64,000 bases of DNA from Chloroflexota bacterium (GTDB lineage: Bacteria; Chloroflexota; Dehalococcoidia; Bin125): NCBI GenBank assembly GCA_009838915.1, contig VXQT01000036.1, positions 1-64,000 of the forward strand, given 5' to 3'. Shown here piece after piece: positions 8,602 to 41,866 of this stretch. Under the pieces are notes generated by a model that saw only the letters and a program-made list of their open reading frames with translations, did no database searches and was not told the DNA's origin. Numbering within the stretch: position 1 is the first letter of the stretch; every line of letters starts with the position of its first letter. A program made the position numbers and the translations under genes.

Positions 8602-8702
8602 GAGCCCCCCTCTGCCTTCGGCATCTCCCCCCGCTTCGCGGGGGGAGAGCGGAGTGAGAAGGCCTTTGGCATCTTCCCCCACGAAGCGGGGGGAGAGAGG
8701 AG
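8602..8702. repeat. Two tandem copies of a dispersed double-hairpin repeat
   Basis: Copy one (about 8602-8654) has a C-run, a small hairpin TGCC-TTC-GGCA, the linker TCT, a large hairpin CCCCCCGC-TTC-GCGGGGGG and AGAG. Copy two (about 8655-8702) is degenerate: it keeps TTTGGCATCT and CCCCC-ACGAAGC-GGGGGG. It fills the gap between two convergent genes. Related copies lie near 13.9, 21.2, 41.8 and 58.0 kb. It may act as a bidirectional terminator, but no U-tract follows. Confidence 0.8.
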
Positions 8703-21165: not shown

Positions 21166-21297
21166 TCCTCCTCTCCCCCGCCGCGCGGGGGAGATGTCGC
21201 AGAGCGACAGAGGGGGCACGCACGCCCAACGTATGCTCGGAGCCCCCCTCTGCCTTCGGCATCTCCCCCCGCTGTGCGGGGGGAGAGATGATGATGC
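21166..21297. repeat. Two dispersed double-hairpin repeats in opposite orientation
   Basis: The first copy (about 21167-21218) is inverted; read on the minus strand its small hairpin is GTCGC-TCT-GCGAC and its large hairpin CCCCCGC-GCG-GCGGGGG. The second (about 21240-21290) is direct: TGCC-TTC-GGCA and CCCCCCGC-TGT-GCGGGGGG. Together they fill the gap between the convergent GNAT-like gene and rpe. Confidence 0.8.
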
Positions 21298-37144: not shown

Positions 37145-38728
37145 TCACGGTAGCGACCGACCCGCCAGGATGCCTGTCGGCCGGCCCTCGTCAACTGCGA
37201 GCTGGCCGTTCACGATCACGTAGGGAATGCCTGCGGGCGGCGTTCTCGGATCGTTGAAGTCGGCCGTGTCGATCACCGTGTCGGCGTTGAACACGACCAG
37301 GTCGGCGAACTTGCCTTCGGCGACGACGCCGCGATCAGTGAGGCCGAAGCGGCCGGCGGGCAGCGAGGTCATGCCGCGCACGATGTGTTCGAGCGAGACG
37401 CCACTGCGTCGCCGCAGCCGACCCACGATCCTGGGGAATGTGCCGTATGCGCGGGGATGCGGGATGCCCTCGTCGAAGGGAATGCCGTCAGAGCCGACCA
37501 TGTAGTCGTCGCGCGAGAGCAGCGCCATCACGTCCGCCTCGACCTGGCGGACCACCGACGGGCTGGCCGGCATGCCGTCGCGGAAACCACACTGCAGGCC
37601 CGACTCACGCATCACCTTGAGCATCATCTCGGAGACCGAGGATCCCAACTTCTGAGCCGCGTCGGCGAAAGAGACGCCTTCAAGGTGCTTCAGGTGTTCC
37701 GCACCGATCCAGGTCCAGATAGCCGCGTCGTTTCGACCAGGAAACAGGTGCTCCAGCGAGTCGATCAGCCGATCGCGCCAGGCTGGATCGGCCAGGCGCT
37801 GCAGCAGTCGGTCGATGCCGCCGATGTGGCACTCGCCGCGCAGGAAATAGCCGGGCACGGTCGCGGCGGCGGCGTATGGGTAGCACTCGAGCGTGACGTC
37901 GACGCCGTCCGCCTTGGCCCGGTCGACCTCGGACATGATTGAGTCGATGTCGCCGGCGTTGCTGGGGAAGGTGCGGTAGTGCGAGATGTGCACCTTGACG
38001 CCGCTGCGGCGGCCGATGTTCATCGCCTCAACGATGCCGGAACCATCCGGTGCGCGGTCGTCGTTGTGGTTGCGAATGTGCGTCACGTAGACGCCGTCGT
38101 ACCGGGCGACAACTCTGTTCAGCGCCACCAGTTCGTCAGTGTTCGAGTATGAGTTGGGATAGTAGGACAGCCCCGTCGAGAGTCCAGTTGCGCCCTGCTC
38201 CATCGCCTCAGCGACCATCCGCTCGGCGTTGTCGAGGCCCGCGCCTTCGAGGGGGACATCCTCAAAGCCGACGCTCTCCAGTCGGACCGGTCCGTGCGGC
38301 GCCTGTACGGCGACGTTGCAGCCTTTGCCGTCGTAGTGCGAGCGGAAGGCGGCCATCGTCGACATGTCCAGCCCGCTCGGCGGCGGACCGTAGAGTCCGG
38401 CGATGTAGCGGCCGTAGGAGTCCAGATTCTGCTCGGACAGCAGCGCGTAGGAGAGTCCGTCCTGGGTGATGAACTCGGTGGTCACGCCCTGCACGAGTCC
38501 GTGCGCGTGCACTGGATCGCGCAGCAGGACGCCGTCGGAGTGCGCGTGGGTGTCGATGAAACCGGGCGCGACAGTTAGGCCCGCGGCATCAATCTCCCGC
38601 TCCGCCGTCAGCTCCGACAGGTCGCCGATTGCGCTGAACCGATCGCCCTCGATTGCCACGTCGGCAGGGAATGCGGGCGACCCGGCGCCGTCGACAACCG
38701 TGCCGCCGCGAAGTAGCAGATCAGCCAT
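37145..38728 (-). CDS. Amidohydrolase family 3 / N-acyl-D-amino-acid deacylase-type
   Basis: A 527-residue metal-dependent hydrolase of the D-aminoacylase group. The small beta domain MADLLLRGGTVVDGAGSPAF leads to the metal site FIDTHAHSDG. Later ligands are likely in YVTHIRNHNDDR and VKVHISHYRTF, and the catalytic aspartate region is MVGSDGIPFDEGIPHPRAYGTFPRI. The C-terminus has GRFGLTDRGVVAEGKFADLVVF. Such enzymes remove the acyl group from N-acyl-D-amino acids or open related rings. ATG 38728 overlaps the end of the upstream CotH gene by eight bases, so the pair is probably co-transcribed, though they share no obvious pathway. Confidence 0.9.
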   Translation of the reverse strand: MADLLLRGGTVVDGAGSPAFPADVAIEGDRFSAIGDLSELTAEREIDAAGLTVAPGFIDTHAHSDGVLLRDPVHAHGLVQGVTTEFITQDGLSYALLSEQNLDSYGRYIAGLYGPPPSGLDMSTMAAFRSHYDGKGCNVAVQAPHGPVRLESVGFEDVPLEGAGLDNAERMVAEAMEQGATGLSTGLSYYPNSYSNTDELVALNRVVARYDGVYVTHIRNHNDDRAPDGSGIVEAMNIGRRSGVKVHISHYRTFPSNAGDIDSIMSEVDRAKADGVDVTLECYPYAAAATVPGYFLRGECHIGGIDRLLQRLADPAWRDRLIDSLEHLFPGRNDAAIWTWIGAEHLKHLEGVSFADAAQKLGSSVSEMMLKVMRESGLQCGFRDGMPASPSVVRQVEADVMALLSRDDYMVGSDGIPFDEGIPHPRAYGTFPRIVGRLRRRSGVSLEHIVRGMTSLPAGRFGLTDRGVVAEGKFADLVVFNADTVIDTADFNDPRTPPAGIPYVIVNGQLAVDEGRPTGILAGRSLP

Positions 38729-40121
38729 CGCCCGGCGCCTTTCCGGTCGCATCCCAGGCTTCAATCTTGTCGGCAATGTACTGCCAGCGCTCGTCGATTT
38801 CCTTATGCAGCAGCCGGACCGCGGCGCGCCACTTAATCTCTCCTGGTCCGTTCTCGTCGGCCAGGACATGCGGCTCGATCAGCTCTGTGATCGCGTTCAC
38901 CCGCGCATGCATCTGTTCCAACGTGACGACTTCCTGCATCAGCTCACGCGACGCCTCGATGTAGCGTTCCCAGCCCTGCGTCACCAGCGCGTGGATTACC
39001 GCATTGCAGTGCGGCGCGCGGGCGTCGATACCCCAGAACACTTCGCGCGAGCGGCAACTGCGATCCGGTTCATCCCAGTCGGGCATGCCGTAGTAAGTGC
39101 GGATCGGACTAGGCGAGCGCCAACTGTTCTCGACGTCCCAGGGGATCAGGCTGAACTCTCCCGAGAGCGCATCTTCGTACCAGAAGTAGTTGTGATTGCC
39201 GCACACCGGCACGCAGTACCAGGCCACGATCCCGTCCCAGTTGTCGGTCAGGCGGTCCGCGGCCAGGTAGCCGAAGAGCGTGTCCAGGTCCTGGATGTAG
39301 TCCTCCAACACGGCGAACACCGCCGCGGCCGGATCGTCCGACTGCTCCGCCTCGGTGAGCGACGCCGAGAACTCGCGTAGTCCCGACGGATCTTCGGGTC
39401 CGCGCCTGATCGCTCCTTCAATCGTCTCGCTGAACGCCGGCAAGCGTTCAATGTTGCCCGGCCAGATCTCCTTGTAGAGCACGCCGCGCCCGCCATCGCG
39501 GAAGCGATCGGCAATGAACCGATCGTCGATGTCTTCGGACAGCGTGTACAGCCCAAGCGGCTCGCCGTTGAGGCGCAGCAGGGCGAATACGGAGCGCGGC
39601 GCCGCTACCCCGGCGTCGCGGAACACCTGGTAGGTCAACACTTCGCGCATCTGCGCGTCGTCGCTGTTCATCTGGTGGAAGTTCAGACGCTTCAAGCCGT
39701 GAAAGCGCAACGACGGTTCGTAGTGGTTGAACTTCAACTTCCAGGCCAGCTTGTCGCAGGTATTCACGCCGGTGAAGAAACACTGTCGCAGCACACCGAA
39801 GAAGCCTTTGTAGCGCACGCCGATCGGCCCGTAGTGTTCGCCGTCGATGATCACGGCCCCTTCGACGTATTGCTCAGCTGTCGGATTGGCGTCGAGCTTC
39901 GCCTGTTCCGCTTCATCGAGCAGGATGTCGTAGACCCGTACCGTGCGCTGATCGAAGACGATGTTGGACGGATCGCTGCGCTGCTGTTCGACGCCAATCG
40001 TCGACTCGGCAGCCTCTGTGGGAATGCGGGGATCCAACGCGTCTCCTGCAGTGGCGATCACCACTGCGGCGATAATCACACCGGCCGCCAGGACGAGCGC
40101 CAACACCGCTTGCCGGTTCAT
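38721..40121 (-). CDS. CotH kinase family protein, membrane-anchored or secreted
   Basis: A 466-residue CotH-type protein kinase-like enzyme. Residues 1-25 are a signal anchor (AVLALVLAAGVIIAAVVIAT). The CotH core has YGPIGVRYKGFF, LKRLNFHQMNSDDAQMREVLTYQVFRDAG, GLYTLSEDIDDRF and the active-site end NWDGIVAWYCVPVCGNHNYFWYED with FSLIPWDVENSW. Bacterial spore-coat CotH phosphorylates serines on other proteins; homologues outside spore formers are less clear. ATG 40121 was preferred over 40166 because it sits directly before the hydrophobic segment. It is divergent from a VTC-domain gene, a recurring association. Confidence 0.9.
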   Translation of the reverse strand: MNRQAVLALVLAAGVIIAAVVIATAGDALDPRIPTEAAESTIGVEQQRSDPSNIVFDQRTVRVYDILLDEAEQAKLDANPTAEQYVEGAVIIDGEHYGPIGVRYKGFFGVLRQCFFTGVNTCDKLAWKLKFNHYEPSLRFHGLKRLNFHQMNSDDAQMREVLTYQVFRDAGVAAPRSVFALLRLNGEPLGLYTLSEDIDDRFIADRFRDGGRGVLYKEIWPGNIERLPAFSETIEGAIRRGPEDPSGLREFSASLTEAEQSDDPAAAVFAVLEDYIQDLDTLFGYLAADRLTDNWDGIVAWYCVPVCGNHNYFWYEDALSGEFSLIPWDVENSWRSPSPIRTYYGMPDWDEPDRSCRSREVFWGIDARAPHCNAVIHALVTQGWERYIEASRELMQEVVTLEQMHARVNAITELIEPHVLADENGPGEIKWRAAVRLLHKEIDERWQYIADKIEAWDATGKAPGDG

Positions 40122-40172
40122 CGCGCCTCCGGGCCCGGTCGAGCCGGTCCAACAACGGGATAGCATATCGAC

Positions 40173-40907
40173 ATGGCGCTCACCCTACGCCGCCCGGGAA
40201 GTCGGAACCAGATAGCGGAAGCGGACTCGCGCGAGGAGCGCAAGTACCCGTTCCCGGCGGCGCGGGCGAGCCTACTGACCGCCTGGCTCGATGCGCGACT
40301 GCCGCGCGACCCGCAGTACCCCGTCGGCATCGTGACGAGCTGCTACTACGACACACCGCAGCTCGACGCCTACCAGGAATCGGCCGACGGCGAGCTGCGC
40401 AAGCAGAAGCTGCGCCTGCGCTGGTACGGCGAGCCGATTGATCCATACGCTGGCGTCTGGCTGGAGATCAAAACGCGCGACGGCGTGCGTTCCTCCAAGC
40501 AGCGTTATCGCTATCCGATCTCCGGCGCGGCCAATGCACTCGGCCTGGCGATCCCTCGGCGCAGGGAACTGGCGGCCTGGCTTACAGAGTTGTCGGCCAG
40601 CGTAGGCGCGCCGCTCGATCCGACGATGGAGCCGACGGCGCTGGTGCGCTACGGGCGGATTCGCTGGCAATCGAGCGACCGGCAGGTTCGAGCCGCGCTC
40701 GATACCGAGGTCTGCGCCGCCGCGCCGTCGGGCGCTCCGATCTGGCTGCCGATTCCCGACGGATCGGTGCTGGAGTTAAAGTCTGCAGGCGACCTGCCGC
40801 CGCAGATGGAGCAGCTGGGCCGGCTCGGCCTGCGCCGTACCGCGCACTCCAAGTACGCGCTCGCCGTCGAACGGCTCTACGGCGGCGACCGCCCGCCGAC
40901 CCGCTAA
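40173..40907 (+). CDS. VTC-domain (polyphosphate polymerase-like) protein
   Basis: A 244-residue VTC domain, a tunnel fold of the triphosphate-tunnel family. Alternating charged strands are visible: EERKYPFP at the start, VGIVTSCYYDTPQLDAYQES, RKQKLRLRWYG, VWLEIKTRDGVRSSKQRYRY and the end HSKYALAVERLYG. In yeast Vtc4 such a domain makes polyphosphate; the activity of bacterial stand-alone forms is not settled. It precedes a DUF4956 membrane protein by 24 bases and is divergent from CotH. The CotH/VTC/DUF4956 set recurs in bacteria, so the three probably work together at the membrane. Confidence 0.88.
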   Translation: MALTLRRPGSRNQIAEADSREERKYPFPAARASLLTAWLDARLPRDPQYPVGIVTSCYYDTPQLDAYQESADGELRKQKLRLRWYGEPIDPYAGVWLEIKTRDGVRSSKQRYRYPISGAANALGLAIPRRRELAAWLTELSASVGAPLDPTMEPTALVRYGRIRWQSSDRQVRAALDTEVCAAAPSGAPIWLPIPDGSVLELKSAGDLPPQMEQLGRLGLRRTAHSKYALAVERLYGGDRPPTR

Positions 40908-40931
40908 CGATTGACCGATGAGGAGGCGCGG

Positions 40932-41621
40932 ATGCCCATTGTGATGATCGAGTGGCCCGACATTCTCGGCCCCACGTCGGAGATCGTGCTGGAGGAGTAC
41001 CTCTTCGCGATGCTCGTGTCGCTGGCTGCTTCCGTGGCGACGTATGCGCTCTACGTGTTGTTCTACCGAGACTGGCAGCGCGGCGCGGGCATCCACCGCG
41101 TGTTCCTGCTCGCGGGACCGGCGATCACGCTGCTGTTCATCGCCATCCAGTGGTCACTGCCGCTCTCGCTGGGTCTGCTCGGCGCGCTCTCCTTCGTGCG
41201 CTTCCGCACGCCGATCAAGGATCCGGCCGAGATCGGATACCTGCTGGTGATCATCGCCTCGTCGATCGGCGCAGCAACCTACAACTACGAACTGGTCGGC
41301 ATCCTTTTCGCCATCGTCGCTGCCGTCCTGATCGCTCAGCGGATCTTCGGTTCGACGGGTCTGCGCGGGCTTGCCTCAGGCAGCCGCGACCTGATCATCA
41401 CGATGCCGGCCGAGGACTACACGGAGCACGAGTCTTCACTGCTGGAGTTCCTGCGCGCCAACCTGCGCGGCTTCAAGGTCGCATCGACGACACAGAATGC
41501 CGGCGCCGCCAGTCTGCACATCAACTTCCGCCGCTCCCGCCTGGACGACCGCTGGGGCGAGTTTCGACAGGAGCTTGAAACGGTCGTATCGCCGGCGTCG
41601 GTGGAGTTGTACGTCGGCTAA
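40932..41621 (+). CDS. DUF4956-family membrane protein
   Basis: A 229-residue protein with about four membrane helices in its first 140 residues, then a soluble ferredoxin-like C-terminal domain (RDLIITMPAEDYTEHESSLLEFL and ASLHINFRRSRLDDRW). The DUF4956 signature is LSFVRFRTPIKDPAEIGYLLVIIA. The frame opens earlier with TTG 40911, but ATG 40932 follows a strong ribosome binding site, GAGGAGG. The function is unknown; its steady partner is the VTC-domain protein encoded just upstream. The tRNA-Sec gene begins 12 bases after its stop, so read-through transcription into the tRNA is likely. Confidence 0.9.
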   Translation: MPIVMIEWPDILGPTSEIVLEEYLFAMLVSLAASVATYALYVLFYRDWQRGAGIHRVFLLAGPAITLLFIAIQWSLPLSLGLLGALSFVRFRTPIKDPAEIGYLLVIIASSIGAATYNYELVGILFAIVAAVLIAQRIFGSTGLRGLASGSRDLIITMPAEDYTEHESSLLEFLRANLRGFKVASTTQNAGAASLHINFRRSRLDDRWGEFRQELETVVSPASVELYVG

Positions 41622-41633
41622 GCTCACCTGCAC

Positions 41634-41731
41634 GGGAGCGGAAGGGGACCGGTGTCCCCCCTAGTCTTCAAAACTATTGCGGGGCGGCCCGCGCCGTCTC
41701 GGGTGGGTTCGACTCCCATGCGCTCCCGCCA
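41634..41731 (+). tRNA. selC: Selenocysteine tRNA, anticodon TCA
   Basis: The 98 bases fold as a tRNA-Sec. The acceptor stem is 41634-41640 with 41721-41727; the eighth position (41641/41720) is G-G. The D arm has a six-pair stem (41644-41649 with 41654-41659) and a four-base loop CGGT, a mark of tRNA-Sec. The anticodon loop CTTCAAA (41666-41672) has TCA at 41668-41670 and equals that of E. coli selC. A long variable arm spans about 41677-41702. The T loop is TTCGACT, the discriminator is G41728, and CCA is encoded. The long variable arm and D arm argue against an ordinary suppressor tRNA. It implies selA, selB and selD elsewhere in the genome. Confidence 0.95.
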
Positions 41732-41760: not shown

Positions 41761-41866
41761 CTTCCCTCTAAGGGAAGCTATCCCGTAGGGATTGAAGGGG
41801 GGCGCATCGTAGCCAGAGCCCCCCTCTGCCTTCGGCATCTCCCCCCGCTGCGCGGGGGGAGAGCGA
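41761..41866. repeat. Hairpin pair followed by one dispersed double-hairpin repeat
   Basis: Downstream of tRNA-Sec, CTTCCCT-CTA-AGGGAAG (41761-41777) and TCCC-GTA-GGGA (41781-41791) can form two small hairpins and may end the tRNA transcript. From about 41816 to 41866 lies a direct copy of the dispersed repeat: TGCC-TTC-GGCA, then CCCCCCGC-TGC-GCGGGGGG and AGAG. It stops two bases before the end of the convergent dehydrogenase gene. Confidence 0.75.

Follow-up and report, generated by a model that had tools for sequence, protein, structure and literature searches.

Positions 41634-41731 of the window, i.e., the whole stretch of 64,000 nucleotides that was analyzed, represent an ordinary, very probably functional selC gene within a full selenocysteine (Sec) system. 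We are highly confident in the overall reading that this gene would be transcribed from a -10-type promoter of its own and used by a complete Sec system, and that the G.G opposition at its eighth acceptor pair is a clade-wide variant that would leave function intact.

Results

Identity and structure of the tRNA-Sec gene

ARAGORN called a tRNA-SeC with the anticodon TCA on the forward strand at exactly 41634-41731, the sole tRNA of the window, and returned the same boundaries as the initial annotation. In a cmscan search against Rfam, RF01852 matched 41634-41727 with an E-value of 1.8e-12, and its score exceeded the tRNA-Sec cut-off of 47 bits, below which the initial annotation would have been withdrawn (Table 1). 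No Rfam families other than RF01852 were found in the window. The features from which the tRNA-Sec had been recognized (D stem, anticodon loop, variable arm, T loop, G73, and CCA) are each borne out by the bases. In tRNA-Sec, G73 and the long variable arm are tied to serylation. The six-pair D stem with a four-base loop is the feature recognized by SelA (PMC7609411).

With its UCA anticodon, six-pair D stem and four-base loop, long variable arm, G73, CCA, eight acceptor bases, and five-pair T stem, the gene resembles bacterial tRNA-Sec as represented by RF01852 (E. coli selC type, 8/5). Unlike in the E. coli type, the eighth acceptor pair is G.G instead of C-G, and position 27-43 is unpaired. 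Both oppositions had already been pointed out, the latter as a C-T mismatch at the top of the anticodon stem, and proved to be real on reading the bases. In the 8/5 register, all 13 layers of the acceptor plus T helix are present, 12 of which are paired, with G.G as pair 8. An alternative 9/4 fold, pairing A41642 with T41719, was evaluated at -41.2 kcal/mol compared to -42.5 kcal/mol for a 7/5 fold with open G.G; since the 9/4 fold is slightly worse, the bacterial 8/5 register was kept.

At position 27-43, C41661 opposes T41677, and the six-pair anticodon stem of the Rfam model flags 26-44 as well. Because most congeners have A.A at 27-43, while C.T or G.T is found in sister genera, the C.T opposition is considered lineage variation. 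Judged from these sequences, the lineage simply varies at the top of this stem, and C.T is lineage noise.

Table 1. Features of selC, its upstream region, and GrdB-like genes of the same genome. Positions refer to the window unless a contig is given.
Feature	Position	Strand	Evidence
DUF4956 protein gene (PF16316), neighbor outside selC	40911-41621	+	Pfam, 37.9 bits
Putative -10 element TAAGCT, overlapping the DUF4956 stop codon TAA	41619-41624	+	Conservation; recurrence before tRNA genes
selC, tRNA-Sec (UCA), with encoded GCCA end	41634-41731	+	ARAGORN; Rfam RF01852, 70.8 bits
Acceptor 5' strand, eight bases, G41641 opposite G41720	41634-41641	+	Sequence, structure
D arm GGGGAC-CGGT-GTCCCC, six Watson-Crick pairs, four-base loop CGGT	41644-41659	+	Sequence, structure
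Anticodon TCA	41668-41670	+	ARAGORN; read within loop CTTCAAA, 41666-41672
Long variable arm, seven-pair stem GGGGCGG/CCGTCTC	41681-41700	+	Structure
T arm, five pairs, G.T at base, loop TTCGACT	41703-41719	+	Sequence, structure
Acceptor 3' strand (41720-41727), discriminator G73 (41728), CCA (41729-41731)	41720-41731	+	Sequence, structure
GrdB-like gene L250, in-frame TGA	C38:57872-58261
GrdB-like gene L251, in-frame TGA	C22:228619-228975

Occurrence of selC in related genomes

Within the genus, selC was found above the cut-off in 13 of 15 genomes (this genome and 12 of its 14 congeners); the two congeners without selC are fragmented assemblies with a completeness of 88-89%. The genus alignment revealed an almost invariant tRNA body. 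Furthermore, variants of individual selC genes were observed. C38 takes the place of A38 (loop CTTCAAC) in three congeners and two other families (L056, L057, L058, L060, and L053), with the anticodon unchanged. One genome of the same class harbors two slightly different selC copies approximately 4.5 kb apart, which share the same upstream sequence (L061, G038:C68). In another selC (L054, G022:C1), the acceptor stem is followed by GGTT and, unlike in most of the class, CCA is not encoded. A 7/5 form of selC was found in some near-closed genomes of 1.4-2.1 Mb belonging to one family of the same class; as this form is on record for Dehalogenimonas lykanthroporepellens (PMC5330540), the class is probably Dehalococcoidia. 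Searches for selC-like DNA yielded nine records in the plasmid collection and no match in the phage and E. coli collections.

Upstream region and putative promoter

The start of selC lies 12 nt downstream of the stop codon of a protein gene (41619-41621), as initially described, and Pfam upheld the identity of this neighbor as DUF4956. DUF4956 is located immediately upstream of selC in 10 of the 13 selC-bearing genomes of the genus and is displaced by approximately 1 kb in the other three. An element of the form GGCTAACCTC (GGCTAAGCTC at 41616-41625 here) precedes selC, with minor changes, in 12 aligned genomes of the genus, and in three genomes it is tandemly doubled with an unchanged distance to the tRNA. 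Its hexamer TAAGCT, at -15, resembles a -10 box in both form and location. Moreover, of the 10 tRNA genes of this genome that were examined, selC included, 8 have a -10-like TANNNT box between -12 and -17, compared to 0.65 expected from shuffles. A sigma-70 consensus scan revealed no full promoter upstream of selC, because a -35 element is not recognizable. The initial annotation had described selC as being without a clear promoter; this has to be revised, as the putative -10 box TAAGCT is conserved in congeners and recurs before other tRNA genes. The best reading is probably that selC has a promoter of its own, which overlaps the stop codon of DUF4956 and from which transcription would probably start near the mature 5' end.

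Alternatively, selC might be expressed only as the tail of a VTC-DUF4956 transcript, which would tie Sec decoding to this operon. While the short gap, the frequent adjacency of DUF4956 within the genus, and the missing sigma-70 consensus match are in line with such an arrangement, we consider it unlikely: GGCTAACCTC is retained in all three congeners that have a different gene just upstream, DUF4956 is not found beside selC in other genera of the family, and the -10 box is also present ahead of other tRNA genes. Since the conserved -10-like element precedes selC, there is no indication that selC relies on transcription of DUF4956, which is a lineage-specific neighbor of selC, and no link to Sec is indicated.

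By Pfam, the neighbors of selC comprise DUF4956, VTC, CotH, and isocitrate/isopropylmalate dehydrogenase. At 38721-41621 of the window, a CotH kinase gene (reverse strand) adjoins the VTC-domain and DUF4956 genes (forward strand), and the latter two stay together within the genus. Additionally, a dispersed hairpin-like repeat, TCTGCCTTCGGCATCTCCCCC, is found at 41825-41845, 8611-8631, and 21249-21269 of the window, with one copy located approximately 95 nt downstream of selC. Allowing up to 2 mismatches, this repeat occurs at 156 places in the genome (0 for the backward control).

Sec machinery and Sec-type genes in the genome

The absence of Sec synthesis genes had been named as an observation that would speak against a tRNA-Sec; in the genome examined (2.87 Mb, 38 contigs, 95% complete), selA, selB, selD, and genes with in-frame TGA are all present. 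Matches to selA (528 bits) and selB (348 bits) were above the cut-off and devoid of in-frame stops, and selD, likewise above the cut-off (350 bits), contains one in-frame TGA. The latter lies in the context RCGG-TGA-GSK, presumably the active-site Cys/Sec position of SelD. The sel genes are distributed over four sites, with selA and selB approximately 460 kb apart on contig C28, selD on C24, and selC, which is present above the cut-off as a single copy, on C22.

Furthermore, two GrdB-like ORFs (PF07355) were identified, with TGA contexts of LTPV-TGA-PFCT and LTPV-TGA-PACT and a frame that remains open well past the TGA. They resemble each other both before and after the TGA, and both genes (LTPV-U-PxCT) likely encode selenoproteins. 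Candidate SECIS hairpins after the TGAs were examined by folding. Two molybdopterin (formate dehydrogenase-like) genes lack an in-frame stop in the matched part and have, therefore, been left out of the count of Sec proteins. Given selA, selB, and selD together with three genes in which an in-frame TGA falls at a Sec position, it is almost certain that this selC-bearing genome reads UGA as Sec. By homology with the established bacterial pathway, SerRS would put serine on tRNA-Sec, SelA together with selenophosphate from SelD would yield Sec-tRNA-Sec, and SelB would carry the latter to UGA codons.

A tRNA-Sec-like shape is also found in allo-tRNAs and tRNA-Cys of the selC* type, which could insert Ser or Cys at UGA or another codon; these relatives have long variable arms and long acceptor stems too, some with UCA (PMC7609411). 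However, it is most improbable that selC belongs to them. Their acceptor domains are 12-pair or 8/4 (PMC7609411), neither of which is found here, while the eight acceptor bases per strand and the five-pair T stem agree with tRNA-Sec, as do the six-pair D stem, G73, and TCA, and the genome, which carries selA, selB, and selD, has no other selC above the cut-off.

Mismatches at acceptor pair 8

The G-G at the eighth acceptor position had been regarded as unusual; however, comparison with selC acceptor stems of Chloroflexota revealed that it is common in the phylum. Every selC examined from the genus and the family has G.G at pair 8. Counted by family, 20 of the 33 in the class show a mismatch at this pair, which is G.G in 15 of them. 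The class contributed 42 distinct tRNA-Sec, 31 of them mismatched at pair 8; elsewhere in Chloroflexota the figure was 27 of 62, and it was 14 of 54 outside the phylum, where the mismatches include A.G in Acidobacteriota and G.G in Halomonas. Altogether, 72 of 158 distinct tRNAs have a mismatch at pair 8, compared to 15 of 1896 cells over the other twelve pairs; as the 158 tRNA-Sec are related sequences, these mismatch figures represent counts and not independent events. For the other-phyla control, named genomes were scanned with a pattern leaving the acceptor stem untouched. Since the paired forms found elsewhere are A-T, C-G, T-A, or G-C, pair 8 is a true pair in pairing lineages. A decayed selC pseudogene with a loosened acceptor stem, for which the non-Watson-Crick G.G at pair 8 and C.T at 27-43 might speak, is scarcely credible, considering that the whole family shares the identical G.G, which is also frequent in the phylum, that the tRNA body is nearly unchanged among congeners, and that this is the sole selC copy while selD carries a TGA.

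In the ViennaRNA model, G.G (-24.0 kcal/mol) is the cheapest mismatch at pair 8 and comes near to G.T (-24.6 kcal/mol), with G-C at -27.4 kcal/mol and most mismatches at approximately -21.4 kcal/mol. Based on column composition, 46.1 cases of G.G are expected under independence, and 47 were observed. As the purine-purine enrichment at pair 8 is weak given the column composition, we make no claim of selection for G.G itself.

Discussion

In E. coli, C7-G66, G49.U65, and C50-G64 have been reported to serve as identity elements for SelB and to keep EF-Tu from binding (PMC9976931). Pair 8 of the selC described here corresponds to C7-G66, and the second element, G49.U65, is retained. The G.G is a variant found throughout the clade, placed in the 13-pair acceptor/T helix where SelB is told apart from EF-Tu in E. 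coli; it would probably stack within the helix at a cost similar to that of a G.U pair and leave function intact. In the literature searched, which lay outside subscription journals, no description of a pair-8 mismatch in Chloroflexota was found.

Twelve-pair (7/5) variants of tRNA-Sec have been reported, among others for Dehalogenimonas lykanthroporepellens and Epsilonproteobacteria (PMC5330540, PMC4607533). As in the gene described here, their eighth acceptor pair is not Watson-Crick; however, they have seven 3' residues between T stem and discriminator, often with a 5' bulge, while here both strands keep eight bases with G.G opposed. Eukaryotic tRNA-Sec likewise has a non-canonical acceptor-helix pair (5a:67b), believed to be important for the Sec elongation factor, but at another position and within a 9/4 fold; the functional need for 5a:67b has been tested (PMC7609411). 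It is conceivable, albeit doubtful, that in Chloroflexota and, independently, in other phyla a mainly purine-purine joint at pair 8 replaces C7-G66, rejecting EF-Tu and fitting SelB. By analogy, and just as tentatively, such a joint would give bacteria an equivalent of the non-canonical acceptor pair seen in eukaryotes.

The selC gene described here adds one member to the known tRNA-Sec family, together with a modest structural observation. Sec decoding is strongly indicated in a lineage of Chloroflexota, probably Dehalococcoidia, and the apparent oddities of selC are explained away. For specialists, the one point to retain is that acceptor pair 8 has loosened phylum-wide. This pair is thought to aid the separation of SelB and EF-Tu, and it alone within the 13-layer helix is dispensed with in many lineages. 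Gene finders and the 8/5 rule should tolerate a mismatch at this pair, and its variation opens a clean test of the antideterminant model.
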